From Beijerinckiaceae bacterium (lineage in GTDB: Bacteria > Pseudomonadota > Alphaproteobacteria > Rhizobiales > Beijerinckiaceae): a stretch of 64,000 bases of DNA. Under the pieces are notes generated by a model. The model ran no database searches, had not been told where the DNA came from, and was given only the letters and a program-made list of their open reading frames with translations. This document shows positions 18,184 through 39,816 of this stretch, piece by piece. Each line of letters opens with the position of its first letter. Position 1 is the first letter of the stretch. The DNA lies in contig JAPZTO010000006.1 of NCBI GenBank assembly GCA_027532775.1, positions 62,001 to 126,000 on the forward strand, given 5' to 3'. The position numbers and the translations under genes are program-made.

Positions 18184-18227
18184 TGTAAGCTTAGAGTGAC
18201 AGTTCTTAATGTCAATCCAGCCTGACA
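18184..18227 (-). promoter_or_regulatory. Paired PpsR/CrtJ operator at the bchC promoter
   Basis: Two perfect TGT-N12-ACA palindromes lie at 18184-18201 and 18210-18227, separated by 8 bp. The distal one contains a - strand TTGACA hexamer that could be the -35 box. The spacing and overlap match the classical bchC operator of Rhodobacter, where CrtJ/PpsR binds cooperatively and represses in air. Confidence 0.9.
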
Positions 18228-20272: not shown

Positions 20273-20316
20273 TGTAAGGTTGCCTTGACAGTTTTCATTG
20301 TCAAGTGAAGATGTCA
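20273..20316. promoter_or_regulatory. Paired PpsR/CrtJ operator between crtE and crtD
   Basis: A perfect TGT-N12-ACA at 20273-20290 and an imperfect TGT-N12-TCA at 20299-20316 are separated by 8 bp, the same spacing as at bchC. TTGACA hexamers occur on both strands inside the sites (20285-20290 on +, 20304-20299 on -). One operator pair therefore serves both divergent carotenoid units. Confidence 0.85.
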
Positions 20317-20326
20317 TGATGCGTGT

Positions 20327-21886
20327 ATGGCAAGTGTGACATCGCGTGATCGGGTCGTGGTCATCGGGGCGGGCATCGGCGGGCTCAGCGCCGCCCTGCT
20401 TCTCGCCGGGCATGGATTCGCGGTTACCGTGATCGAGGCTGCCGGCAGCCCGGGCGGCAAGATGCGGCAACTCGCAGTGGGTGGCCATGCGCTGGATGCC
20501 GGCCCGACCGTTTTCACCATGAAGGCGGTGTTCGAGCAGCTCTTCGCCGAGGCCGGACTGGATTTTGCGGCCCGCGTCCCGCTCCGGCGGCTCGATGTTC
20601 TGGCCCGCCATGGCTGGCCGGATGGCAGCCGGCTCGACCTTCATGCCGACAGGCAGGCCAGCCGCGAAGCGATCGCCGCCTTTGCCGGCGCGGAGGCCGG
20701 CCGGCTTTATTCGGAATTCGCGCGCGAGGCGGAGGCGATCTGCCGGTCGCTCGAACAGAGTTTCATGCAGGCGGAGCGCCCCTCCCCGCTCGGACTGGTG
20801 CGGCAGGCCGGGATTGGCGCGATGCTGCGGACGCAACCTTTCTCGACCATTTGGAAGGCGCTCGGCCGCTTCTTCCCCGACCCGCGCCTGAGGCAGCTTT
20901 TCGGCCGCTATGCCACCTATTGCGGCTCCTCGCCGTTCCGCGCCCCGGCCACGCTGATGCTCATCGCCCATGTGGAGCAGGAGGGCGTCTGGCAGATCGA
21001 AGGCGGCATGCATACGCTTGCCCGGGCCATGCAGGCCGCCATCGAGGGGCTGGGCGGCGTGTTCCGCTTCGGAGAGCGGGTGACCACAATCGAAACCGCG
21101 CAGGGCCGGGCCAGCGGCATCCGGCTGGCGGACGGAACGCGGCTCGACGCGGATTTCGTGATCAGCAATGTCGACCGCGAAGCGCTTGCCGGCGGGTTGC
21201 TGGGGCCGGAAGCCACGCGTTCCGTCCCGCCGCTGCCGCGCGAGGGTCGCTCGCTTTCCGCCATCACACTCAGCGGGCGCGGGCAATTCTCCGGCTTTCC
21301 GCTGCATCACCATACGGTGCTGTTCTCGGCCGATTATCCGGCCGAATTCGCCGCGCTCGATCGCGGTGCCGTTCCTGCGGACCCCACCCTCTATATCTGC
21401 GCGCTGGACCGGCATGGTTCCGCAGCGCCAGAGGGCGAGGAGGGATTCCTTCTGCTCATCAATGCGCCGGCCCGTGGCGACGAAGCCGTGGCCGGCCTGC
21501 CGGAGATCGAGACATGTCACAGGCTCCTTTCGCATGCCCTGAGCCGCCATGGCCTGACGCTGAACCCGGGCCCCGCGCCACCGGTCCTGACACGGCCGCA
21601 GGATTTCGCGGCGCTGTTTCCGGGCACGGGCGGGGCGCTGTACGGGATGGCGACGCATGGAGCGATGGCCTCGTTCCAGCGCCCGGGCTCGCGCAGCCGC
21701 ATGCCGGGCCTCTACCTGACGGGGGGGAGCGTGCATCCGGGACCAGGCGTTCCGATGGTGGCCCTTTCGGGCCGGTTGGCCGCCGAGGCGCTGATCCGGG
21801 ATCGGGCTTCGACACGGCGGTTCCTGCCGGGGGCTACGCCTGGTGGTATTGCGATGCGATCAGCGCCGACGGCCGGTTCGGGCTGA
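20327..21886 (+). CDS. crtD: Hydroxyneurosporene/rhodopin 3,4-desaturase (methoxyneurosporene dehydrogenase)
   Basis: 519 residues. It is a CrtI-related flavoprotein: the N-terminal dinucleotide site VVIGAGIGGLSAAL and the C-terminal GGSVHPGPGVPM motif frame the enzyme, which introduces the C3-C4 double bond into acyclic carotenoids. The C-terminal tail after DRASTRRF is Pro/Gly-rich, as in other proteobacterial CrtD proteins, and overlaps the crtC coding frame. The ATG has no Shine-Dalgarno and lies only 10 bp after the PpsR-type operator, so the mRNA leader must be short if the promoter lies in the operator. Confidence 0.93.
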   Translation: MASVTSRDRVVVIGAGIGGLSAALLLAGHGFAVTVIEAAGSPGGKMRQLAVGGHALDAGPTVFTMKAVFEQLFAEAGLDFAARVPLRRLDVLARHGWPDGSRLDLHADRQASREAIAAFAGAEAGRLYSEFAREAEAICRSLEQSFMQAERPSPLGLVRQAGIGAMLRTQPFSTIWKALGRFFPDPRLRQLFGRYATYCGSSPFRAPATLMLIAHVEQEGVWQIEGGMHTLARAMQAAIEGLGGVFRFGERVTTIETAQGRASGIRLADGTRLDADFVISNVDREALAGGLLGPEATRSVPPLPREGRSLSAITLSGRGQFSGFPLHHHTVLFSADYPAEFAALDRGAVPADPTLYICALDRHGSAAPEGEEGFLLLINAPARGDEAVAGLPEIETCHRLLSHALSRHGLTLNPGPAPPVLTRPQDFAALFPGTGGALYGMATHGAMASFQRPGSRSRMPGLYLTGGSVHPGPGVPMVALSGRLAAEALIRDRASTRRFLPGATPGGIAMRSAPTAGSG

Positions 21887-22920: not shown

Positions 22921-24021
22921 TTACGTCTGGGGCTGGCGCATCGGATTGCTGCCCAGCGACAGGTCCCGCTCGGCGCGTTCCAGCTTCTCGAGGATCGGGA
23001 GAATGGTCAGCAACCGGCCCGAGAGATCCCACCAGGCGAGACCGCCGGAAACCGGAACCGCCGGCATCGCGAGATCCGGCAGGCCGGACATCATGAAACG
23101 CACGGCCTCGTGCGGCGGCGGCAGCGCCTGACGGGCATGGGTCAGGCCCTCATCGGGCAGGCGGGCCAGAGCGGAGAGCAGGAGCCGCCATTTCCGGCCG
23201 CGCGGCACCACGGTCCGACGCAGGATATCGGCGCTGGGGTTGCGGAGAATGGCCCGGCCGATCTCGGCATAGATCAGCCGGGCAGCGCGGATGGCAGGCC
23301 GACAATCCGGTGGCAGCAGCGCGATGCCGAGTTCGGCGCGGCGATAGAGCCGTTCGGCCTCGTCAAGCAGGCGACGGGCAGCAAGGCGGATCGCCGGGTG
23401 ATCCTGCGGATCGGCCAGCCAGGCGACAGGGTCGAGCCCGGCCTCGCGCAGCCAGAGCCGGGGCAGATAGAGCCGCCCGTTGCGGGCATCCTCGCCGATA
23501 TCGCGGACGATATTGGTGAGCTGCATCGCCATGCCGAGATCGGCGGCGCGCGCCAGAGCGGCATCCTGCGGGCGGCCCATGATGGCGCTCATCATCACGC
23601 CGACGGAGCCGGCCACGCGGGCGGCATAGTCCATCACGTCATCCAGCGTTTCGTACGGGCGCTCCTCCGCATCCCAGGCGAAGCCCTCGACCAGCGCATC
23701 GACAGCCGGGCGCGGTATTGCGCAGGCTTGCACCACGGCCGCAAAGGCCCGGTCCGCAGGATGGGGAAAGGGCTCGCCGCGATAGATCCGCTCAACCCGC
23801 AATCGGACCAGTTCGACCCCGGCCTCGGCCTTGCCGGTCATGTCGATCAGATCATCGGCGATGCGGCAGAAGGCATAGAGCCCCGTCGCCGCAACACGGA
23901 GACGGCCGGGCAGCAGATGCGAGGCGAGCGCAAAGGATTTCGAGCCCTGCGCGAGCAGCGCGCGGCAGGCGGCAAGATCCCGCGCGGGCAAGTCGGGGAT
24001 AGGATCACGCATCGGCTGCAT
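22921..24021 (-). CDS. crtB: Phytoene synthase
   Basis: 366 residues from ATG 24021 (MQPMRDPIPD) with GAGGTGG upstream; a second ATG at 24012 is possible. It joins two geranylgeranyl diphosphates into phytoene. The two Asp-rich motifs of squalene/phytoene synthases are visible, FCRIADDLIDM near residue 60 and NIVRDIGEDARNGRLYLP near residue 155-175. It overlaps the end of crtI by 17 nt, so the two steps are coupled. Confidence 0.96.
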   Translation of the reverse strand: MQPMRDPIPDLPARDLAACRALLAQGSKSFALASHLLPGRLRVAATGLYAFCRIADDLIDMTGKAEAGVELVRLRVERIYRGEPFPHPADRAFAAVVQACAIPRPAVDALVEGFAWDAEERPYETLDDVMDYAARVAGSVGVMMSAIMGRPQDAALARAADLGMAMQLTNIVRDIGEDARNGRLYLPRLWLREAGLDPVAWLADPQDHPAIRLAARRLLDEAERLYRRAELGIALLPPDCRPAIRAARLIYAEIGRAILRNPSADILRRTVVPRGRKWRLLLSALARLPDEGLTHARQALPPPHEAVRFMMSGLPDLAMPAVPVSGGLAWWDLSGRLLTILPILEKLERAERDLSLGSNPMRQPQT

Positions 24022-25537
24022 GGGGCACCACCTCGTCGAGGATGCGGGCGGAACAGAGGACGCCGGGAACGCCCGCGCCGGGATGGGTGCCTGCGCCGAC
24101 GAGATAGAGGTTCGGCACCTCCTCGCTGACATTATGCGGGCGGAAATAGGCGCTCTGGAACAGCAAGGGCTCCGGCCCGAATGCCGCGCCGGCCTTCGAA
24201 CGGAGGCGTGTCTCGAAATCGAGCGGCGTGATCATATGCGAGGAGACCACGGAATCCGACAGGCCGGGCAGCAGGGTCGCCTCGAGATGGCGGGCAATGC
24301 GCTGCCGGAAAGGCTCGGCGAGGCTGGCCCAATCCTGCCCGCCCTGGAGATTGGGCACCGGGACAAGGGCATAGAAGGCGTCATGCCCGGGCGGAGCGAC
24401 GGAGGGGTCGGTCGCGCTCGGGCGATGGAGATAGAGGCTGAAATCCTCCGCCACGATCTTCTTGTGAAAGATGTCGTCCAGCAGGCCGCGATAGCGCGGG
24501 CCGAGCTGGATCGTATGGTGCGGAACGGCCTCATACCGCCGGTTCGTGCCGAAATACCAGACGAAGACGCCCATCGAAAAGCGGGTGCGCCTCAGCTTCG
24601 CGCTGGTCCAGCGCTTGCGCTTCACGCCGGCCAGCAGCGTGTCATAGGTATGGCCGATGCAGGCATTCGAAACGACGATATCCGCCTCGATCCGCTCGCC
24701 GCCCGCCAGCCGGATGCCGCTGGCGCGGCCGGAATCAACCTCGATCGCCTGTACGGGCGAATTCATCCGGAAGGTCGCGCCCTGCCGGTGCAGCAGGTTG
24801 ACCAGCCCCTGCACGAGCGCCGCCGTGCCGCCCATGACGTAATGGACGCCATGGGTCTTCTCGAGATGCAGGATCAGCCCGTAGACCGAGGTGACATCGA
24901 ACGGGTTGCCGCCGATGAAGAGCGGATGGAAGCTGAGCGCGGTGCGCAGCCGCTCGTCCTTCACATGCTTCGCCGCCAGCCGGTAGAGCGAGCGGTCGGC
25001 GCGCATGCGGACCATGTCCGGCAGCACCTTGAGCATGTCGGTGAGCTTCGTGAAGGGCACCGCGCTGAGTTCCTCGAAACCGATCCGGTAGATAGCCTCG
25101 CTCTCGGCCATGAAGCGGAGATAGCCGGCCTCGTCGCCCGGGCACAGGGCGCGGATGCGGGCGCGCATTGCCGCCATGTCGCCATTGCATTCGAGTGAGG
25201 AGCCATCCGCGAAATCAAGCCGGTAGAACGGGTCCATCGGTTTGAGGGTAATGTCATCCGCCATCCGGCGGCCGCAGAGCGCCCAGAGTTCTTCCAGCAG
25301 GAAGGGCGCGGTGATGATGGTCGGGCCGGCATCGAAGAGGAAGCCATCCTGCCGCCAAGGCGCAGCACGCCCGCCCGGTTCGGCCAGCGCATCGACCAGC
25401 GTGACGCGATAGCCGCGCGCGCCCAGCCGGATGCCGGCGGCAAGGCCGCCGAGGCCCGCGCCGACGATCACCGCATGGGGCCGGGCATCCCGTGTGCCGG
25501 CGGCAAGGGCCGATTTCGGCGGTTCCGGTTGCCACAT
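24005..25537 (-). CDS. crtI: Phytoene desaturase
   Basis: 510 residues with GGGGAGGG upstream. It converts phytoene to neurosporene or lycopene, using FAD at the membrane. The N-terminal nucleotide fold is VIVGAGLGGLAAGIRLGARGY and the C-terminal FAD motif is VGAGTHPGAGVPGV. Number of desaturations cannot be read from the sequence. The presence of crtC, crtD and crtF and the absence of crtA suggest the spirilloxanthin branch. It lies 15 bp after bchO. Confidence 0.96.
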   Translation of the reverse strand: MWQPEPPKSALAAGTRDARPHAVIVGAGLGGLAAGIRLGARGYRVTLVDALAEPGGRAAPWRQDGFLFDAGPTIITAPFLLEELWALCGRRMADDITLKPMDPFYRLDFADGSSLECNGDMAAMRARIRALCPGDEAGYLRFMAESEAIYRIGFEELSAVPFTKLTDMLKVLPDMVRMRADRSLYRLAAKHVKDERLRTALSFHPLFIGGNPFDVTSVYGLILHLEKTHGVHYVMGGTAALVQGLVNLLHRQGATFRMNSPVQAIEVDSGRASGIRLAGGERIEADIVVSNACIGHTYDTLLAGVKRKRWTSAKLRRTRFSMGVFVWYFGTNRRYEAVPHHTIQLGPRYRGLLDDIFHKKIVAEDFSLYLHRPSATDPSVAPPGHDAFYALVPVPNLQGGQDWASLAEPFRQRIARHLEATLLPGLSDSVVSSHMITPLDFETRLRSKAGAAFGPEPLLFQSAYFRPHNVSEEVPNLYLVGAGTHPGAGVPGVLCSARILDEVVPHAADA

Positions 25538-25552: not shown

Positions 25553-26443
25553 TCAGGCCGCCTGCGCCAGGCCATGATCGGCGGCGACGCGATCCACGAG
25601 CTCGACAACCCTGGCGGGCTGCTCCTCGTGGCAGAGATGGCCGAGGCCGGGCAGGAAATGCAGCCGGATGGACGGCATGGCCTGCTTGAGGCCGCGCGCC
25701 TGTTCCGGCGAAACCGCCTTGTCGCCGAGGCCGACAATCAGGTGCAGCGGCACGGCGAGATCCGGCATGGCCTTGCGCAGGGAGGCAAGATCCCAATAGG
25801 CCATCATGGCCAGAGTGGCGCGGACATGGTCGCGCGAGCGGAACAGGCGCTGATAGAGCGCCAGACCTTCGGGTGAAAGGCGGGATCCGGTCGATTCCAT
25901 CAGCCGGGAAATTGCAGCGACATCCGTCGCCTGCCAGGTGAAGAAGCGCGGCACGAAAGGGTTCAGCGTCAACAGCCGGGCGAGCGGCGGGAATATCCGC
26001 TCGGCCGCGCCGCCGAAAGGCACGAGGGCGGCGTTGATGCCGACAATGGCGCGCGGCGTGATCGAGCCATCCAGCGCCATGCGGATCGCGATGGCCGCGC
26101 CGGCGGAATGGCCAATCACGAGATCGACCTCAGCATCGAGCGCCACGAGGAGCGCCGCGACCGCCTTTGCCATGCCCGGCAGGCCGGCCTCGGCTTCGGG
26201 CAGCGGATCGGTGAAGGCATGGCCGGGCAGATCCGGGACGATCAGGCGGAAATGCGGCGCGAGCAGCGGGATGACATCGCGCCAGGAATGCGTGGAGGCC
26301 CCGGTCCCGTGCAGGAGAAGCAAAGTCGGCCCCTTGCCGAAAACCTGCACATGCCAGTTCAGGCCCGCGGCCTCGACGAAGCGGCTCGCCTCGCGATGCG
26401 GCCAGTCCGCCCCGTCCTGCTGCCAGTCAAGCCGGCCGGTCAT
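25553..26443 (-). CDS. bchO: Alpha/beta hydrolase BchO, associated with magnesium chelatase
   Basis: 296 residues from ATG 26443, overlapping the bchD stop by ATGA. The alpha/beta fold shows LLLLHGTGASTHSWRD, the nucleophile elbow GHSAGAA near residue 105, and a late His in LPGLGHLCHEE. BchO accompanies bchID in purple bacteria; its exact step is not settled. The ORF track lists a longer frame whose first 160 residues are bchD shadow. Confidence 0.93.
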   Translation of the reverse strand: MTGRLDWQQDGADWPHREASRFVEAAGLNWHVQVFGKGPTLLLLHGTGASTHSWRDVIPLLAPHFRLIVPDLPGHAFTDPLPEAEAGLPGMAKAVAALLVALDAEVDLVIGHSAGAAIAIRMALDGSITPRAIVGINAALVPFGGAAERIFPPLARLLTLNPFVPRFFTWQATDVAAISRLMESTGSRLSPEGLALYQRLFRSRDHVRATLAMMAYWDLASLRKAMPDLAVPLHLIVGLGDKAVSPEQARGLKQAMPSIRLHFLPGLGHLCHEEQPARVVELVDRVAADHGLAQAA

Positions 26444-28212
26444 GCCCTGTGCGCGGCGCGGGGCGCCGGCCTTTCCTGGCTGACGGCATGCACCACCAGT
26501 TCCGGCGCGGCATAGGGCAAGGGGAGGTAACGGGCCTCCATGGCATCCGCCAGAATAGCCGCCGCCTCGCCAGGCTTGTTCGCCGTGTCGATGAGGATCG
26601 TCGTCTGGCCGAGCGCGGCGAGTTCCCGCGCGGCCTGCCGGGCATCGGCCATGGCGCGCTCGCGGCCGGGCTGGCCATCGCGGCCGATATTGGCGCGGGC
26701 ATCGGTCATGAAGACGAGAACCGGCGTGCGGCCCGAGCGCATGATGCCCTCCGCCACCTGACGGGCGGTATCGATCGCGGTGGCGAGCGGCGTCCCCCCG
26801 CCACCGGCCAGGCCGGCCAGGGCGCGGGCGGCGCGCGCGAGAGCGCGGGTCGGCGGCAGGACCATTTCGGCCACGCGGCCCCGGAAGGTGATCAGTGCCA
26901 CCTCGTCGCGGCGGACGTAGCATTCCGCCAGCAGCAGCTGCACGGCGCCCTTGGCCTCGCCGAGGCGCTGGAGCGCGGAGGAGCCGGAGGCATCGACAAT
27001 GAAGAGCGTGGTGGTGCGGCGCCGGGCCCGGCGCCGGACAATGCGGAAATCCTCGCGGCGGACGGCGATGGTGCCATCGCCGAAAGAGGCGCCCCGGCGC
27101 AGCTTCTGCCAGGGTGCAGCCGCGCGGAGTGTATCGATCAGGCCGAGCCGCGCGCCCGTCCGGGGATCGCCGGGCTTGACGCCGACAGCCCGGCCGCGCC
27201 GGGCATTCTTCTCTCGCGCACCGGCCTTGCCGGCAGAACGCTGGCGGCCGGAAGCCGCGCGGGCCTTGAGATCGGCCAGCAGCCCAGCCGGCAATGCGGC
27301 CAATGCCGACTGGCTCATCACGTCATCGGGCGGATCACCGGACTGTTCCTGCGGCGGGTTTTCCGGCGGCGGGGTGTCGGCATCCGGCGGCGGCGGGGGC
27401 GGCGTTTCCTCCTCCTGCTGCTCCTGCCGGCTCGGCCATTGCACGGCGCGTGGCGCCAGAACGAGCGCGGCGGCGAGGATCGCATCCTCGTCTTCCACGT
27501 CGAGCCGGCCATGCAGCGCAGCGAGGGCACGAGCCACAGCGACGGCCTGCAGCGACGGGCGCAGCGAGGCCAGGCCGAAGCCGGCCGCAGCCGCACAGAG
27601 TTCGCCGATGATGCGGGCGGAGGTCGCCACGACGGGCAGGCGCTCGCGCGCGGCCGTCATGGCCTGGAAAGAGAAGGGCGACTCGCCGAAAGGAGCATGG
27701 GCGAGATCAAGCACAAGGCCCAGACGCTCGGTCAGCAGCGAGGGCGGGGCTTCGTCATCGATGCCCTCATCCAGCGCCACCATGGCGAACTGGGCCGGCA
27801 GCGTCTGCGTCACGCCATCGCGCTCGACATGCAATTCGCCGGTTTCGGCGGTGGCCGCAACAAGGCTTGCCAGCCAGGGATCAAGCCGCTCGGCCATGCT
27901 GATGACGAGATAGCCGCCATCGGCCTCGGCAAGCAGGCCGCGCTCGGTGACGGGCAGACCGGAGGCGAGGGTCGCGGCGAGATCGAGCCCGCCGATCAGC
28001 CGGGATTCGGCGATGCCGGCCGGCATGCGCCGGAAGGGCACGCCCGGCACGGCAGAGGCACGCAGGGCGGCGAGCCAGCGATCGCGGTCGGGACCGGCCT
28101 GGGCCCGCAGCCAGATGCCCCCCGCCGCTTCAGGCGCGACGGCGAGCACGGCAAGCGCCAACCCGGCCAGATCCGCCCCGGTCGGATCGCTTCTGGCCGG
28201 ATCGGGAGTCAT
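26440..28212 (-). CDS. bchD: Magnesium chelatase ATPase subunit D
   Basis: 590 residues. The N-terminal AAA-like half has lost a canonical Walker A, as is usual for BchD. A Pro/Glu-rich linker (EEETPPPPPPDADTPPPE) at about residues 268-290 leads to a C-terminal integrin I domain with the MIDAS motif DASGSSA near residue 405. It assembles with BchI and BchH to insert magnesium into protoporphyrin IX. It overlaps bchI by ATGA and is followed by bchO in the same way. Confidence 0.96.
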   Translation of the reverse strand: MTPDPARSDPTGADLAGLALAVLAVAPEAAGGIWLRAQAGPDRDRWLAALRASAVPGVPFRRMPAGIAESRLIGGLDLAATLASGLPVTERGLLAEADGGYLVISMAERLDPWLASLVAATAETGELHVERDGVTQTLPAQFAMVALDEGIDDEAPPSLLTERLGLVLDLAHAPFGESPFSFQAMTAARERLPVVATSARIIGELCAAAAGFGLASLRPSLQAVAVARALAALHGRLDVEDEDAILAAALVLAPRAVQWPSRQEQQEEETPPPPPPDADTPPPENPPQEQSGDPPDDVMSQSALAALPAGLLADLKARAASGRQRSAGKAGAREKNARRGRAVGVKPGDPRTGARLGLIDTLRAAAPWQKLRRGASFGDGTIAVRREDFRIVRRRARRRTTTLFIVDASGSSALQRLGEAKGAVQLLLAECYVRRDEVALITFRGRVAEMVLPPTRALARAARALAGLAGGGGTPLATAIDTARQVAEGIMRSGRTPVLVFMTDARANIGRDGQPGRERAMADARQAARELAALGQTTILIDTANKPGEAAAILADAMEARYLPLPYAAPELVVHAVSQERPAPRAAHRA

Positions 28213-29384
28213 GAGCCGAAAACCTCGCCGATCGCGCGCTCGACCCGTGCCGTGGCGCGGGAATCATCGAGGGGCGAGCGACGCAGGCGATGGCGGAGCG
28301 CCATGGGCGCGACGATACGCACATGCTCCTCCTCGACCGAATCCTCGCCCTGATAGGCCGCAAGCGCTCGGGCGGCGCGGATCAGCGTCAACTCGCCGCG
28401 CAGGCCGTCGGTGCCGAGCGCAATGCATAATTCCGTGGCGCGACGCAGGGCGCCCTCGCTGGTTGTCATGCTGCCGATCCTCTTCCGCGCGGCGGAGATA
28501 CGGCGGCGAATTCCGGCATCGCGGCCGCGCCAGGCATCGGCGAAAGCCTCGGGATCGCGGTCAAAGGCATCACGGCGCCGGACGACCTCGATCCGCGTCT
28601 CCAGATCGGAGGGCGTCTCGACATCGACCGACAGGCCAAAGCGATCGAGCAATTGCGGGCGCAATTCGCCCTCTTCCGGGTTGCCGGAACCAACAAGCAC
28701 GAAGCGGGCGGGGTGGCGGATACTCAGCCCCTCGCGCTCGACGACATTTTCGCCGGAAGCCGCCACGTCGAGCAGCACGTCGACGAGGTGATCCTCGAGG
28801 AGATTGACTTCGTCGATATAGAGGAATCCGCGATGCGCCTTGGCCAGCAGACCAGGCTGGAAGGCCTTTTCGCCCCGGGCCAAAGCCCGTTCGAGATCGA
28901 GTGCGCCGACGACACGGTCTTCCGTGGCGCCGAGCGGCAGGTCAACGACCGGCACGGGAACGAGATGGGATTCGGCCTGGCCGCGCCGGCCCTTGTCGAG
29001 CGAGAGCCTCTGGCAATGCTCGCAGGAAGCGGCCGGACGACCGGGCTCGCAGCCATAGGGGCAGCCGACAATGGCACGCATGCGCGGCAGCAGGGCCGCA
29101 AGGGCGCGGATCGCGGTGGATTTCCCGGTGCCTCGATCGCCGAAGATCAGCACGCCGCCGATGGTTGCATCGATGGCGGAGAGGATCAGCGCGTTCTTCA
29201 TCTCCTCCTGTGCCACGATGGCGGAGAAAGGAAACGGCACGCGCTGGCGTGGCGCCGGAGCCGGCGTGACCCGGAGCATCCGGTTGGCACGATCGACGGG
29301 TGCGGGGTGCCCGGCGAGCGTTTCGCGCAGGGGTTCTTCCCGGTCCGGAAGGGGGCGCTGGGCGCCATAGGCTTCTGCCGACAT
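28209..29384 (-). CDS. bchI: Magnesium chelatase ATPase subunit I
   Basis: 391 residues from ATG 29384 (MSAEAYGAQRPLPD), with GAGGAGA upstream. It has a full AAA+ set: Walker A GDRGTGKST near residue 75, Walker B FLYIDEVNLLEDH, and sensor/arginine-finger region NPEEGELRPQLLDRFG. It forms the motor ring of magnesium chelatase with BchD. It lies 10 bp after ispH in the dxs-ispH-bchIDO-crtIB unit. The first ~40 residues before FPFSAIVAQEE are longer than in many BchI proteins. Confidence 0.97.
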   Translation of the reverse strand: MSAEAYGAQRPLPDREEPLRETLAGHPAPVDRANRMLRVTPAPAPRQRVPFPFSAIVAQEEMKNALILSAIDATIGGVLIFGDRGTGKSTAIRALAALLPRMRAIVGCPYGCEPGRPAASCEHCQRLSLDKGRRGQAESHLVPVPVVDLPLGATEDRVVGALDLERALARGEKAFQPGLLAKAHRGFLYIDEVNLLEDHLVDVLLDVAASGENVVEREGLSIRHPARFVLVGSGNPEEGELRPQLLDRFGLSVDVETPSDLETRIEVVRRRDAFDRDPEAFADAWRGRDAGIRRRISAARKRIGSMTTSEGALRRATELCIALGTDGLRGELTLIRAARALAAYQGEDSVEEEHVRIVAPMALRHRLRRSPLDDSRATARVERAIGEVFGS

Positions 29385-29394
29385 GGCGCTCTCC

Positions 29395-30378
29395 TCAGGT
29401 TCGGGCGGTGCTGGCAAGCCGGACGGGCAAGCGGAACACGACATCTTCCTCGACACCTTCCAGTTCGGTGATGGACACATCCCGGAAGTGACGAAGCCAG
29501 TCGATTGTGGCCTGGATCAGCTCTTCCGGGGCGGAAGCGCCGGCAGAGAGACCGAGCGTGGACACGCCCTCCAGCCAGGTCAGGTCGATGGAAGCCGGCC
29601 CCTCGACGAGATAGGCCGGCACGCCGAGTTGCGCGCCGATCTCCCGGAGGCGGCTGGAATTGGAACTCTGCCGCGAGCCGATGACGAGGATCATCTCGGC
29701 GCGCCCGGCCATTTCCTGCACGGCGGCCTGGCGGTTCTGCGTCGCGTAGCAGATGTTGCGCGTATCGGGGCCGACAATATCCGGAAAGCGCGCCTTCAGC
29801 GCCGCGATCACATCCCGCGTGTCCTGCACGCCGAGGGTCGTCTGGGTGATGTAGGCGACGCGGGAGGGATCCGCGATCTCGAGATCTGCCACTTCTTCCG
29901 GCCGGGCGATCAGGTGCAGGCGGCCATCGATCTGGCCGCGCGTGCCCTCGACCTCGGCATGGCCGGCATGACCGATCAGCACCACATCATGGCCCTGCTC
30001 GGCATGGCGGCGGCCCTGGACATGGACCTTCACCACCAGCGGGCAGGTCGCGTCGATGACATCGAGGCTGCGATCCGCGGCCATGGCTTCGACCTTGCGG
30101 GAGACGCCATGCGCGCTGAAAACGGTGATCGCGCCTTCGGGGATCTCGTCGACCTCGGACACAAAGATCGCGCCGCGCGCCCGCAACTGTTCCACGACAT
30201 GCGTGTTATGGACGATCTCGTGGCGGACATAGACCGGCGCGCCATGGATCTCGAGGGCGCGCTCGACAATCTCGACCGCCCGGATCACGCCGGCGCAGAA
30301 GCCGCGCGGCTTGGCCAGCAGCACTTCCAGCGGCGCGAGATCGGGCTCGAAGCGGCGTTGCGGGGCATGGCGGTTCAT
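29395..30378 (-). CDS. ispH: 4-hydroxy-3-methylbut-2-enyl diphosphate reductase (MEP pathway)
   Basis: 327 residues, overlapping the dxs stop by ATGA. It makes IPP and DMAPP from HMBPP using a 4Fe-4S cluster. The three cluster cysteines are visible in [15 protein letters not shown] and [10 protein letters not shown], and the substrate histidines and glutamate lie in [11 protein letters not shown] and [11 protein letters not shown]. Its place between dxs and bchI puts the first and last enzymes of the MEP pathway into the pigment operon. It may be a second copy besides a housekeeping ispH; that cannot be judged from this window. Confidence 0.95.
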
Positions 30379-32375
30379 GACCCGGCGGCCCCTTCAGCCT
30401 GGAATTCCGGCTGGCGCAGCACCTTCCTCGCGGAAGGCTCGGCCAGCGAGATCAGCCTCGGCCCTGCGCCCTGGATGACCCGGAGCTTGCTGGCCGGCTG
30501 GACGATGCTCATCGCCAGCCGGATGATCGCATCGCAATCAAGCCCGGCCTCGGCATAGAGGCGTGCCTGCGTGTCATGATCCTGGAAGCGATCCGGCAGA
30601 TGCATCGAGCGGAGCTTCAGACCATGCTCGAGCCAGCCGTTATGGACCAGATATTCCATGACGAGCGCGCCGAACCCGCCCGAGGAGCCATCCTCGACGA
30701 GGATCAGTGCCTCGTGATGCCCGGCGAGCTGTTCCACCAGCGCCCGGTCGAAGGGCTTGGCAAAGCGTGCATCGGCCAGCGTGGTCGAAATGCCGAGTTC
30801 ATCGAGGCGTTCGGCCGCAATCCGGCATTCCTGCAGGCGCGTGCCATAGGACAGGATGGCGAGGCGGCTGCCTTCGCGGAGGACGCGCCCCTTGCCGATC
30901 GGCAGCGGGACGCCGGTTTCGGGCAGGGCCACGCCGGTTCCATCCGCGCGGGGATAGCGGAAGGCAATCGGGCCGGCATCATGCGCCGCCGCGGTGGCGA
31001 CCATATGGACAAGCTCGGCCTCGTCGCCGGGGGCCATCAGCACCATGTTCGGCAGGCAGGCCATGTAGGCGATATCGAAAGCGCCGGCATGGGTGGGCCC
31101 GTCGGCACCGACCAGCCCGGCCCGGTCCAGCGCGAAGCGGACCGGCAGGTTCTGCAGCGCCACATCATGCATGATCTGGTCATAGGCGCGCTGCAGGAAG
31201 GTGGAGTAGATCGCGCAGAAGGGCTTCATGCCGTCACAGGCGAGGCCGGCGGCGAAGGTCACCGCGTGCTGCTCGGCAATGCCGACATCGAAGAAGCGTT
31301 TCGGGAATCGTTTCTCGAACAGGTCGGTGCCGGTGCCGGAAGGCATGGCCCCGGTGATCGCGATCACGCGGTCATCCTTTTCGGCCTCCTTCACGAGGCT
31401 CTGGCCGAATACCTTGGTGTAGGACGGCGCGGCAGCCTTGGACTTTTCCTGCGCACCCGTGGCAACATCGAACTTCACCACGCCATGATACTTGTCGGCG
31501 CTGGCCTCGGCCGGGGCATAGCCCTTGCCTTTCTTCGTGATGACATGAAGCAGGATCGGGCCCTGATCGGCATCGCGGATGTTGCGCAGGATCGGGACGA
31601 GATGATCGAGATCATGTCCGTCGACCGGCCCGACATAATAAAGGCCCAGCTGATCGAACAGCGTGCCGCCGGTGAAATACGAGCGGGCATGCTCGATGGC
31701 CCGGGTGATCGTGCGGTCCATCCGGTCGCCGAACCTGCGGGTCAGCTTGCGGCCGGCCTCGCGCATCGTGAGATAGGTCTTGCCCGAGAGCAGATGCGCC
31801 AGATAGGTCGACATCGCGCCGACAGGCGGGGCGATCGACATGTCATTGTCGTTGAGGATGACGATCAGCCGCGAGCCAAGCGCGCCGGCATTGTTCATCG
31901 CCTCGTAGGCCATGCCGGCGGACATTGCGCCATCGCCGATCACGGCGACGACATGGCCGTCCTTCTGCTGGAGATCCCGCGCGACGGCATAGCCGAGAGC
32001 GGCGGAAATCGACGTCGAGGTATGGGCGGCGCCGAAGGCGTCATATTCGCTCTCGCCGCGCTTGGTGAAGCCGGAAAGGCCTCCCCCCTGCCGCAGGGTG
32101 CGGATCCGGTCGCGCCGGCCGGTCAGGATCTTGTGCGGATAGGCCTGGTGGCCGACATCCCAGATCAGCGTGTCCTTCGGGGTCTCGAAGACATGGTGCA
32201 GGGCGACAGTCAGTTCGACGACGCCGAGGCTGGCGCCGAGATGGCCGCCGGTGGTCGAGACTGCATCGATGGTTTCAGCCCGCAACTCGTCGGCAACCTG
32301 CTTGAGGTCCGAGGCCGGGAGCGCGCGGAGATCGGCGGGCGTGGCGATCAGGTCCAGGAGAGGAGTTTCCGGCAT
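30375..32375 (-). CDS. dxs: 1-deoxy-D-xylulose-5-phosphate synthase (MEP pathway)
   Basis: 666 residues from ATG 32375 ([10 protein letters not shown]), chosen because GTGGAG lies about 9 nt upstream; the track start is that GTG itself. It condenses pyruvate and glyceraldehyde 3-phosphate using thiamine diphosphate. The TPP motif begins [18 protein letters not shown] near residue 150, the substrate histidine is in [11 protein letters not shown], and the transketolase-type central domain and C-terminal domain are complete. Two perfect PpsR-type palindromes lie 22-64 bp upstream, so it is the first gene of a PpsR-controlled operon. Confidence 0.97.
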
Positions 32376-32397
32376 CGGCTTGATCTCCACGGCCGAA

Positions 32398-32439
32398 TGT
32401 CTGCATTGGGTGACATTCTTGTGTCTAGCATTCTTGACA
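32398..32439 (-). promoter_or_regulatory. Paired PpsR/CrtJ operator in front of dxs
   Basis: Perfect TGT-N12-ACA palindromes occur at 32398-32415 and 32422-32439, separated by 6 bp. They sit directly before the dxs start and behind the end of the 90-residue membrane gene, so they most likely govern the dxs-ispH-bchIDO-crtIB unit. Confidence 0.85.
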
Positions 32440-32502
32440 CTTTGGCGAATTCCGCAAGGGGAAAATCACCCGATCGGCCGAATTCGGAGGACAAAATCGG
32501 GG

Positions 32503-32775
32503 TCAGGCCCGGTCTGTCCGCGTTATTCTGCGTATGAGATCAATGGCATGAGCAAGACCGCCCAGCATCAGCAGGGCGGCCATGGCCCAGGCAGGCCCGT
32601 CATCCAGTGCAAGGCGCAGGGCCAGAATGAGCGTCAGGCCTGCCGCGGAGACGAGCAGGATGGTCGCCACGGGCAAACCGCGACCTGTCAAGACTCGATG
32701 ACAGATCAGCGCCAGCGCTTCGATGACGAGAATCGCGATGGCAGAATCGACCCCGATCCGAAGCAGCTCACTCAC
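32503..32775 (-). CDS. Small membrane protein downstream of tspO
   Basis: 90 residues from the GTG at 32775, which overlaps the tspO stop as GTGA; the longer track start lies within tspO. Three hydrophobic segments are visible (around IGVDSAIAILVIEALALI, LPVATILLVSAAGLTLILAL and AWAMAALLMLGGLAHAIDL), so it is a small integral membrane protein of two or three spans. It is the last gene of the bchG-bch2-bchP-tspO unit. I do not recognise a family with certainty; similar short proteins follow tspO or bchP in other PGCs. A role near TspO or the pigment synthesis complex is only inferred. Confidence 0.75.
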   Translation of the reverse strand: MSELLRIGVDSAIAILVIEALALICHRVLTGRGLPVATILLVSAAGLTLILALRLALDDGPAWAMAALLMLGGLAHAIDLIRRITRTDRA

Positions 32776-33275
32776 CGACTTGCCCCCCGGAACGAGCCGT
32801 TGAGCCGCAAGATCTCCCAGTTCAGGAAGCCCGCCGTCGAGACCCAGAGGATATAGGGCAACAACAACACGGCGGCGCCCGGCGAGAATGGCCAGAGCAC
32901 GAGGATCATCGCCAGGATCGACAGCCAGAGGAAGACAAGTTCGCCCAAGGCCCAATCCGGTCTGCGGAACTTGAAGAACAGAAAACTCCAGACGATATTG
33001 AGAACTGCGTTCACCGCGTAGACGACAATCAGCATCCGGCGGGCATCCGCGCCGGGCGCATCACGCCAGCCCATGGCGAAAGCGATGACTGCGAGTGCAA
33101 AGATGGTTGTCCAGACCGGGCCGAACAGCCAGTTCGGCGGCTGCCAGAACGGCTTGCGCAGGGCCTTGTACCAATCCCCGACATCGGTGGCGACACCGCC
33201 GAGGATGGCGACAATGACGGCGGCACCCGCTGCTGGCAGCAGGATCCATGTATCGAGGCCCGAGAAATTGATCAC
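32772..33275 (-). CDS. tspO: TspO/MBR family tryptophan-rich sensory protein
   Basis: 167 residues from GTG 33275, overlapping the bchP stop as GTGA. Five membrane helices and the family signature KPFWQPPNWLFGPVWT near residue 45 are clear, as are the tryptophans in the later loops. In Rhodobacter TspO in the outer membrane modulates porphyrin export and dampens pigment gene expression in air. It is cotranscribed here with bchP. Confidence 0.95.
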   Translation of the reverse strand: MINFSGLDTWILLPAAGAAVIVAILGGVATDVGDWYKALRKPFWQPPNWLFGPVWTTIFALAVIAFAMGWRDAPGADARRMLIVVYAVNAVLNIVWSFLFFKFRRPDWALGELVFLWLSILAMILVLWPFSPGAAVLLLPYILWVSTAGFLNWEILRLNGSFRGASR

Positions 33276-36821: not shown

Positions 36822-36863
36822 CGTCAATTTAGATTTACACTATTTTGTCGCGGCGGACTGACA
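36822..36863 (-). promoter_or_regulatory. Paired PpsR/CrtJ operator in front of bchG
   Basis: TGT-N12-ACG (read on the - strand) at 36822-36839 has the AT-rich CRTJ-like core, and a perfect TGT-N12-ACA lies at 36846-36863, 6 bp away. They occupy the 89-bp gap between ppsR and bchG, so they would repress the bchG unit without covering ppsR's own promoter. Confidence 0.8.
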
Positions 36864-36881: not shown

Positions 36882-38330
36882 TCATTCCTCGGCCGGCACT
36901 TCCGGATCGAGATCGCCGAGGCCGTGGCGGCGCATCTTGGCGTAGAAGCTCTGCCGGCTCAGCCCGAGCATCTGGGCGGCGGAGGCGCGGTTGTCACCCG
37001 ACCGTTCCAGAGCGGCCTCGATGCAGAGACGCTCGATCATGTCGCTGGACTCGCGCACCATGTCCTTCAGCGACACCCGGCCGACCAGCTCGGTGAGCTG
37101 CTCGACGGAGCGGTGAAGCGACCGGCCGCGATGGCCGTTCAGCGCCTGGCGGATGCCGTTGTTGCGGATGACGAAGCCGTAGGTCGGCACTTCGCCGGAC
37201 AGGGCTGGCACGGCCGAGACTTCAACCTGCTCGACGCTGCCATAGGAACCGCGAAGCACGGTCGCGAAGGCGCGCATCGCCCGGCTTTCCTCGAGCCGCG
37301 CCATGATGAGGTCCATGTCAACACCCGGCCGGCCGAGCCAATGCTCGAGAGGCTCGCCGAGCGCCTGCGTCTTGGCGCCAAGCTGGGCCAGATCAAGGAA
37401 GGCCTGGTTGCATTCGACGATCTTGAGATCGCCGTCGATGACAACAAACCCGTCAGGCAGTTGCTCGATGACACCCATGACCTTGCTGGCCAGCCCATCA
37501 CCCCCCGCGACAGGTTGCGTGCCGGCATGCGGCGTCAGCCGGACGAGGAGGAAAACCGCCTGATCCTGCCGGAAAACCGAGGCAGCGACCGAGAAAAGCT
37601 GGCCGTTCTGGGCGAGGCGGGCCTCGACTTCCGGCACCTTGCCGGCGCGGCGGGCGGTCTTCAGCGCAGCTTCGAGCGCCTCGGCGCCATCATAGGTGAA
37701 ACAGGAGAGGATCGACTGGTTGACCAGGCGCTCCGCGCCATTGCCGATCTGGCGCAAAGCCGCCGGGTTGGCCTCGACAATACGCAGGGTTATGGAATCG
37801 ACGATCAGCACCGGCTCGGAAGCGAGGTGGAACAGCATGCGGTAGCGGGTTTCCGCCGCGCGCATCCGCGCGTATTCCTGCTCCATGGCCTCCTGGGTCT
37901 CGACCAGGCGACGCTGCAACTGCGCCAGGCTGCGCAGATCGCGGCCAATGGCGACAAACCGGCCGCTCTTGCCCAAAGCCATTGTGGAATAGCGGATCGG
38001 GACATCGATCCCCGAGCGGGCGGGGTGGTTGATCTCACGCGGCTGGACAAGACCGCCCCGGAGAGAACCGCGGATCAGATCATCGACCTTGGGCCGGCTT
38101 TCCTTGGTGACGATCTCGTTCCATTTGCGACCGCGCCAGTCCGGATCAACCTCTCCGGCCAGTTCGGCATTGCCGAGGACCACATCATGGATGACGCCAT
38201 CGGCATCTATGATGAGCGCGATATCGGACATCGACGCGAGCAGCTTCTCGGCGATATCGGGCGACAGGCCATCGGCCCAGCCGACCCTCAGGCCGTCAGC
38301 GTTGTTGCTGCTGGATGATCCGAATTCCAT
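36882..38330 (-). CDS. ppsR: Transcriptional repressor PpsR/CrtJ
   Basis: 482 residues from ATG 38330 (MEFGSSSSNN). It represses bch and crt genes under oxidising conditions. A glutamine/Leu-rich coiled helix (LQRRLVETQEAMEQEYARM) near residue 140 separates PAS domains, and the C-terminal factor-of-inversion-type helix-turn-helix is NRASAAQMLGLSRQSFYAKMRRHGL. Cysteines occur at about residue 210 (ILSCFTYD), in the second PAS domain (VECNQAF) and at about 436 in the helix-turn-helix part (IERLCIEAAL); redox cysteines are used by the family. It lies after aerR, as is usual, and targets the operators listed here. Confidence 0.97.
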   Translation of the reverse strand: MEFGSSSSNNADGLRVGWADGLSPDIAEKLLASMSDIALIIDADGVIHDVVLGNAELAGEVDPDWRGRKWNEIVTKESRPKVDDLIRGSLRGGLVQPREINHPARSGIDVPIRYSTMALGKSGRFVAIGRDLRSLAQLQRRLVETQEAMEQEYARMRAAETRYRMLFHLASEPVLIVDSITLRIVEANPAALRQIGNGAERLVNQSILSCFTYDGAEALEAALKTARRAGKVPEVEARLAQNGQLFSVAASVFRQDQAVFLLVRLTPHAGTQPVAGGDGLASKVMGVIEQLPDGFVVIDGDLKIVECNQAFLDLAQLGAKTQALGEPLEHWLGRPGVDMDLIMARLEESRAMRAFATVLRGSYGSVEQVEVSAVPALSGEVPTYGFVIRNNGIRQALNGHRGRSLHRSVEQLTELVGRVSLKDMVRESSDMIERLCIEAALERSGDNRASAAQMLGLSRQSFYAKMRRHGLGDLDPEVPAEE

Positions 38331-38439
38331 GTTCTCTCGGCTTCCTTGGGTCGATCTACCTCTGGTCAACGTGTCAGGCAAGGTTCAGGCCAAACAGGGT
38401 GGCCGACGAAGTGTGTGTAAACGGCGGCAGCATCCCGAC

Positions 38440-39414
38440 TCAATCAAGACGCGCCGTCTTCATCATACGATTGACTGCTGCAACAACATCGGGTCCGGCG
38501 CAAGCCTCGATATCGGCGCCGAGGGAAAGAGCCAGGGTCGGCTCCACAAGAAACGCCGATCCCCCGAGCAGTATTTTCACGCCGGGGTTGAGGGATGCTT
38601 CCCGGATCCGCCGGACGAGCCCCGACAGCTGGTTGACCGAGGCATCGCAGCTTGCAGTCAGGCCGACAACATCGAACCATTCCGTCCGCACGCGCTCGAG
38701 CAGCTCCATCCGCGAGAGGCCGACCTCGGCCATGACGTCCCAGCCCGCCCGGATGAAGAACGCCTCGGCGATCGAGGCGCCGAATGTATGGGTCTCGCCG
38801 GGCGCGGCCGAGATGAAGATCCGGCGCGACTCGATACCAGGGTCGAATTCCGGCGCCAGGGCAGGGCCATAGACGCGGATCAGCTGCTGGAGGCGCGACA
38901 TTGCAATCGTGACCTCGACGAAGCTCAGCACATCCTCTTCCCAGAGGCGCCCGAGCTTGCGGGCCGCCGGCTCGAGCAATTCGAGGACGAGCCGCTCGAA
39001 GGGCACATCGCTGATCAGCAGATCGTCGATGAAATCGATCGCGGCATCAACAGGCTGGTCGATCAGGATCCGGAGGAAACGCTCCGCGATGGCGGGTGCC
39101 TCGATATTCGGGATGGCCAGCATCTTCGCGGAAAGCCCCTCGCTCGGCTGCCGGCGAGGCATTGCCTCGCGGTGGAGCAGCATGAGGCGGGGAATGATTT
39201 CGGATTCGATGGTCCGGGCGAGCGGCGCCATATCCGGCATCGCCGGCGCGTAATGTGTGTGCTCTGACCGGTGACGATCCGGCCTGTGACGGTCGAGTCT
39301 GTGGGATGTCCCGCGCGGCATGGCACCCTCCGTGCCCGACCGCGAACCCGCATTGTCATCCCTGTGATCGGGAACGGCGTCGGCGCCGATCATGTCGTCC
39401 GAAGTGCTCGCCAT
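38440..39414 (-). CDS. aerR: PpaA/AerR cobalamin-binding antirepressor
   Basis: 324 residues from ATG 39414 with GGGAGGAG upstream. The B12-binding domain fills the C-terminal half; the cobalt-ligand type histidine is in GETHTFGASIAEAFF, followed by the VVGLTASCDASV segment. It antagonises PpsR when light or redox conditions favour pigment synthesis. The first ~60 residues are an unusual Arg/His/Asp-rich tail (DRHRPDRHRSEHTH) and a shorter product from an internal ATG near residue 56 (MPDMAPLART) is possible, comparable with the long and short AerR of Rhodobacter capsulatus. The track's 439-residue form has no site. Confidence 0.93.
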   Translation of the reverse strand: MASTSDDMIGADAVPDHRDDNAGSRSGTEGAMPRGTSHRLDRHRPDRHRSEHTHYAPAMPDMAPLARTIESEIIPRLMLLHREAMPRRQPSEGLSAKMLAIPNIEAPAIAERFLRILIDQPVDAAIDFIDDLLISDVPFERLVLELLEPAARKLGRLWEEDVLSFVEVTIAMSRLQQLIRVYGPALAPEFDPGIESRRIFISAAPGETHTFGASIAEAFFIRAGWDVMAEVGLSRMELLERVRTEWFDVVGLTASCDASVNQLSGLVRRIREASLNPGVKILLGGSAFLVEPTLALSLGADIEACAGPDVVAAVNRMMKTARLD

Positions 39415-39816
39415 CCCACTCCTCCCAGAGTGTTTCGGTACGTGCGGGACATCTTGGCTTGCGCGCCCTCTCTGACGGGGCTGCAGGAGTCTCTGCGTGC
39501 TGGAAAAGATGTGACAACCAAGCGAGACACAATCTGACAGAATGCCCGCTCTTCCGCAAATCTTTCCGGTTTTTATCACCCAGAAAACGCAGCGACTGTG
39601 AAATGTCGTTGCACCAGCTCGATGGCTCGACCGGGAAAACCCTGTGTTGGCAACACCCTCCATCATTTGGACGCGTCCCGAACGCGCCTTGTTGACTGAC
39701 CATATTAAATGACAACCAAAGTGTCTAGTTAGATTGACAGATGTTTTTTTGGGGCCCACACTCTGCTCAAATTGGTGTCAACCCGGACGAGGGGGATACC
39801 GGATAGGGAGCATACC
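39415..39816. other. 402-bp divergent regulatory gap between aerR and bchF
   Basis: No credible gene is seen; the short frames shown by the track have no site. The aerR end contains its Shine-Dalgarno; the bchF end holds the PpsR pair and a TTGACA box. The middle ~250 bp has no motif I can name beyond an AT-rich stretch (TTTTTTT at 39744-39750), although sites for RegA or FnrL cannot be ruled out by eye. Confidence 0.6.
39697..39739 (+). promoter_or_regulatory. Paired PpsR/CrtJ operator at the bchF promoter
   Basis: TGA-N12-ACA at 39697-39714 and perfect TGT-N12-ACA at 39722-39739 are 7 bp apart. The second contains TTGACA at 39734-39739, a good -35 candidate about 80 bp before the bchF ATG. 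This is the long upstream control point of the bchFNBHLM-puh unit. Confidence 0.8.

Follow-up and report, generated by a model that had tools for sequence, protein, structure and literature searches.

The window analysed here, a stretch of 64,000 nucleotides from a Beijerinckiaceae bacterium, is a photosynthesis gene cluster. On its minus strand the genes ppaA/aerR-like, ppsR, bchG, lhaA/pucC-like, bchP, tspO, a 90-aa open reading frame (ORF), dxs, ispH, bchI, bchD, probable bchO, crtI and crtB follow one another in this order. The cluster copy of dxs (30375–32378; TIGR00204, 806 bits) overlaps at its stop codon by 4 bp with the cluster copy of ispH (29395–30378), and after a gap of ~160 bp these are followed by bchI (28209–29234, start set from the profile match), bchD (26440–28212, overlapping bchI), an alpha/beta hydrolase gene that is probably bchO (25553–26440, with an inferred start within an ORF of 25553–26923), crtI (24005–25537) and crtB (22921–24132, an ORF with an uncertain start). 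The small, unannotated ORF upstream of dxs (32503–32775) encodes a predicted membrane protein of 90 aa, and its GTG start overlaps the tspO stop; a Pfam search of this ORF gave no match. A similar small ORF occupies the equivalent position in a close relative and, as judged by eye, in genome G119. Separately, we observed that tspO (32772–33275; L008, L148, L149, L150) shows 72–78% identity among close relatives, compared with mostly 90–99% for the neighbouring genes, and that the identity of bchO is also lower than that of its neighbours; for tspO, faster change or gene replacement is possible.

We searched the window for the CrtJ/PpsR consensus TGT-N12-ACA and found two full matches 20–61 bp 5΄ of dxs. 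The proximal (lower) site, TGTCTGCATTGGGTGACA, lies at 32398–32415 (PWM score 16.3) and the distal (upper) site, TGTCTAGCATTCTTGACA, at 32422–32439 (PWM score 19.4), and the two are separated by 6 bp (32416–32421). The earlier note had described two perfect palindromes with a 6-bp gap before dxs; the positions, the gap and the full consensus were confirmed, but the palindromes are imperfect, as the outer TGTC/GACA bases pair and the next position is unpaired. The window contains 17 matches to TGTN12ACA, compared with 2.7 expected, and perfect pairs with gaps of 4–11 bp occur twice, before bchC and before dxs, as against none in 400 shuffled windows. A tandem search of the 3.8-Mb genome (first site beginning with TGTC, gap 4–11 bp) returned three places, namely bchC, dxs and C17:470729, and none with the reversed-pattern control. 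The last of these adjoins genes for a FAD-dehydrogenase and a GntR-type protein, and was taken as a probable chance match. The tandem PpsR-type operator predicted before dxs is very probably real. Between positions 20342 and 32397, the pattern search found no perfect TGTN12ACA, leaving the dxs operator as the sole perfect operator for the seven genes from dxs to crtB. These genes, whose order dxs-ispH-bchI-bchD-bchO(-crtI) is maintained in relatives, probably constitute one operon headed by dxs; however, one weak hairpin resembling a terminator was seen in the gap between ispH and bchI, close to the start of bchI, so transcription as one unit is uncertain and a boundary could lie inside the operon.

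A single protein in the genome scores over the cut-off of the PpsR family TIGR02040, and its gene (36882–38381, minus strand; 424 bits, start uncertain) lies ~4.5 kb from the operator. The protein has PAS domains and a Fis-type helix-turn-helix (HTH_8; Pfam), with cysteine 453 at the helix-turn-helix. The adjoining ppaA/aerR-like gene (38440–39759, minus strand) encodes B12-binding domains.

Other PpsR-type sites in the cluster allowed the dxs gap to be compared with its neighbours. The bchC pair at 18184/18210 has a gap of 8 bp, the gaps at crtE/crtD are 8 and 7 bp with one site degenerate, and the bchF pair has a 7-bp gap, again with one degenerate site. The contrast first drawn between 6 bp at dxs and 8 bp at bchC and crtE thus stands for bchC, while at crtE it depends on counting a degenerate second site (20299–20316, TGTCAAGTGAAGATGTCA). 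We also noted that bchG is preceded by a second pair with a 6-bp gap (36822–36863), consisting of sites at 36822, where one half-site is degenerate (CGT), and at 36846; the 6-bp gap is conserved at dxs, yet not unique to it. As the gaps in the cluster span 6–8 bp, any special effect of the dxs gap on cooperative binding is still hypothetical. In Rubrivivax gelatinosus, pucB and crtI carry tandem PpsR sites with gaps of 9 and 8 bp, and changing the gap from 8 to 9 bp in vitro altered the redox response and its sigmoidality or cooperativity (PMC4452267); the 6-bp gap lies outside the gaps tried there (8, 9). Gaps of 76 and 240 bp are reported for crtI and puc of Rhodobacter capsulatus (PMC4452267).

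We scanned the dxs upstream region for sigma-70 hexamers, using a simple scan with weights taken from general knowledge. The best promoter-like hexamers lie on the minus strand at 32430–32457 (–35 TTGCGG at 32452–32457, 16-bp spacer, –10 AAGAAT at 32430–32435), a weak prediction with a low score in the window (4.9), and the predicted –10 falls within the distal site; the proximal site would then span about +9 to +26. The same register, with a TTGNNN-like –35 upstream, was the best in 9 of the 10 dxs promoters scanned, and on bchC, used as a positive control, the scan recovered the known layout with the –35 in the distal and the –10 in the proximal site. The CrtJ sites of R. capsulatus bchC are located at –30 to –47 and –4 to –21 (PMC5362033). 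The dxs tandem resembles that operator in that a photosynthesis promoter carries two adjacent TGTN12ACA sites, but departs from the bchC-type geometry (8-bp gap, distal site on the –35, proximal site on the –10) in its gap of 6 bp and, by the weak prediction, in the placement of the sites, the distal one holding the –10 and the proximal one following the transcription start. The dxs promoter may therefore lie in a different register from that of bchC.

A third palindrome of the form TGTCA-N8-TGACA, TGTCAAGACTCGATGACA, is present at 32686–32703, 264 bp upstream of the distal site and inside the small ORF. Its arms are conserved at 10/10 positions in five close relatives, at a distance of 264–265 bp, whereas the more distant lineage lacks it. 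It might serve as an upstream, looping operator, which we regard as a possibility only, because of the coding frame and the absence from the distant lineage.

The genome contains a further full dxs and a further ispH, both on contig C15, and no TGTN12ACA was found in the DNA examined around them. In the tree, the cluster dxs genes of g1 (the genus of the window) group with those of genus g12 in a single clade (support 0.975) that is distinct from housekeeping dxs. The dxs and ispH of the cluster come in addition to a housekeeping set, which lacks the sites. Given these second copies, PpsR could shut the cluster genes without harm to essential isoprenoid synthesis.

We collected the dxs upstream regions of relatives by bchP and dxs searches within the family. 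The 14 cluster dxs loci comprise lineage A (5 close relatives, the window included), lineage B (5, same genus, divergent) and g12 (4), and, coming from two related genera, they do not represent independent events. The site pair is present in 14/14 of these loci, with a gap of 6 bp in 13 and 5 bp in one (G248), and in 0/139 upstream regions of other dxs copies; that is, the sites are conserved together with ppsR and the target operon and are absent at paralogous promoters. A single site was found among the 139, at L185 (G096), which is near a contig end and whose dxs may itself be cluster-linked. When the 13 blocks with a 6-bp gap were aligned, 12/12 half-site positions were invariant, compared with 0/30 other columns; the 13 rows entered the comparison because they fit the pattern, but the pair was missing from none of the 14 cluster dxs loci. 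Identity outside the arms was only 10–30% between lineages. The 6-bp gap before dxs is old and conserved. An order-wide search for 6-bp tandems (298 genomes) was rejected as a measure of wider distribution, since matches were rare and mostly lay in unrelated coding sequences. Control of the cluster dxs by PpsR through the predicted operator is strongly supported by these comparisons.

We then examined cluster dxs genes of other genera, of which four of eight (G020, G046, G081, G155) carry one perfect site and four carry none. In three genomes (G119, G249, G095), dxs lies tight behind bchP-tspO with no site, and is likely to be governed through the upstream operon. The plasmid-borne dxs of Roseobacter ponti has no TGTN12ACA upstream. 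In genus g11, a TGTN12ACA tandem with a 7-bp gap precedes the only dxs found in G109 (L097, ~1435–1500) and in G131 (L175, ~558–625). The G109 dxs sits downstream of a gene that, from its sequence, we take to be xseB, and no cluster gene was present within the 4.9 kb examined. Two further g11 genomes in which bchP was not detected (G010, G051) have no site before dxs. The g11 tandem, known from two genomes only, looks like an independent gain. It is conceivable, although somewhat doubtful, that PpsR control of dxs arose more than once, in the cluster operon of two genera and separately, outside the cluster, at the only dxs found in g11; if so, general isoprenoid supply itself would be under PpsR there.

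Taken together, the tandem is likely to be a PpsR/CrtJ operator through which PpsR represses the promoter of an operon dedicated to photosynthesis, dxs-ispH-bchI-bchD-bchO-crtI-crtB. Here we infer, from the DNA, the binding of PpsR, repression as the sign of control, a single transcript and the overlap with the promoter. The kind of operator is well known, its consensus and promoter-blocking mode being established (PMC5362033; PMC10890935); new are its target and its gap. In the proposed mechanism, PpsR dimers would occupy both dxs sites side by side, and bound PpsR would obstruct RNA polymerase under conditions that do not call for the photosystem, i.e. in an oxidised or unsuitable light state, until PpaA/AerR or a redox change lifted the block. 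The cluster dxs and ispH would be silenced together with Mg-chelatase and phytoene synthesis, while the housekeeping dxs and ispH would spare quinone and hopanoid synthesis from starvation.

Repression is the part of this proposal with the most serious competitor. PpsR might bind the sites and mainly activate, or act as a light-dependent dual regulator via PpaA/AerR, in which case loss of ppsR would not simply lead to more dxs expression in air. The long form of AerR converts CrtJ to an activator in R. capsulatus (PMC6199135), a ppaA/aerR-like gene adjoins ppsR in the window, and the overlap of the predicted –10 with the distal site bears on position and not on sign. However, promoter-overlapping CrtJ/PpsR sites are usually repressive (PMC5362033, PMC10890935), and nearly all bound targets rise on deletion of ppsR in R. 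sphaeroides (PMC4344238). We consider activation or dual control unlikely, though to be taken seriously.

A second alternative is that most dxs transcription comes from read-through out of bchG-lhaA-bchP-tspO, with the operator only trimming an internal promoter. These genes and dxs are co-directional and closely packed, and the site-less dxs genes behind tspO in G119, G249 and G095 suggest operon control in those genomes. However, all 14 g1 and g12 loci retain the tandem, the spacing of which hardly varies, and the dxs of g12 is the first gene of dxs-ispH-bchI, apart from bchP, and hence needs its own promoter. This makes read-through as the main source improbable. More improbable still is that a different regulator, recognising a motif similar to TGTN12ACA, acts through these sites. 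Such motifs do exist, as TGTC-N10-GACA palindromes number 54 in the genome compared with 20 in the reversed control; however, the sites concentrate at bchC, crtE/crtD, bchG and bchF, which are bound by PpsR in other purple bacteria, and housekeeping dxs genes, in this genome and in related ones, lack the tandem. Chance matches without function, although single TGTN12ACA sites are expected at random (2.7 per window), are refuted by the conservation and also by the shuffled windows and the 14/14 versus 0/139 distribution, and can practically be dismissed.

PpsR repression of a dxs-headed operon, as we propose it, may be compared with known systems. ChIP-seq targets of PpsR in R. sphaeroides include bchC, crtEF/crtCD, crtIB-tspO, crtA-bchIDO, bchG, bchEJ, ppaA, bchF, puc, hemE, prrA and a few others, and dxs, dxr and ispH are absent from the list (PMC4344238), indicating that a link between PpsR and dxs is not general. 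Among the open papers searched, none linking PpsR directly to dxs was found. Both crtIB-tspO and crtA-bchIDO are strongly derepressed without PpsR in R. sphaeroides (PMC4344238, Table 2). Likewise, bchIDO and crtIB in the window lie behind a predicted PpsR-type operator; unlike in R. sphaeroides, they are co-directional after dxs-ispH, with one operator at dxs. In R. sphaeroides, PrrA binds and activates pufBALMX-dxsA and dxr (PMC4263372), and in Roseobacter and other Rhodobacteraceae clusters dxs follows pufC (PMC6052148). The dxs of the window is similar to the dxsA of Rhodobacteraceae in being cluster-borne and, by our prediction, under photosynthesis control, whereas control of the latter is by PrrA and puf read-through.

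The earlier note proposed that PpsR control of the MEP pathway extends the photosynthesis regulon to precursor supply. The conserved PpsR-type tandem before dxs bears this out in part; the general MEP pathway is not reached, because the dxs and ispH concerned are extra copies heading a probable bch/crt operon. MEP genes would accordingly enter the PpsR regulon as part of a bch/crt operon, and operons of this kind are already recognised targets of PpsR. The wiring would differ from that in R. sphaeroides, where ChIP-seq revealed no MEP gene among the PpsR targets and PrrA takes this role. The natural gaps of 5, 6, 7 and 8 bp on related PpsR targets provide a ready test of whether cooperativity depends on the gap. 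For the organism, the arrangement would place the supply of isoprenoid units, needed for phytol and carotenoids, under the switch that governs Mg-chelatase and phytoene synthesis, with spare dxs and ispH copies that would leave the housekeeping pathway untouched.
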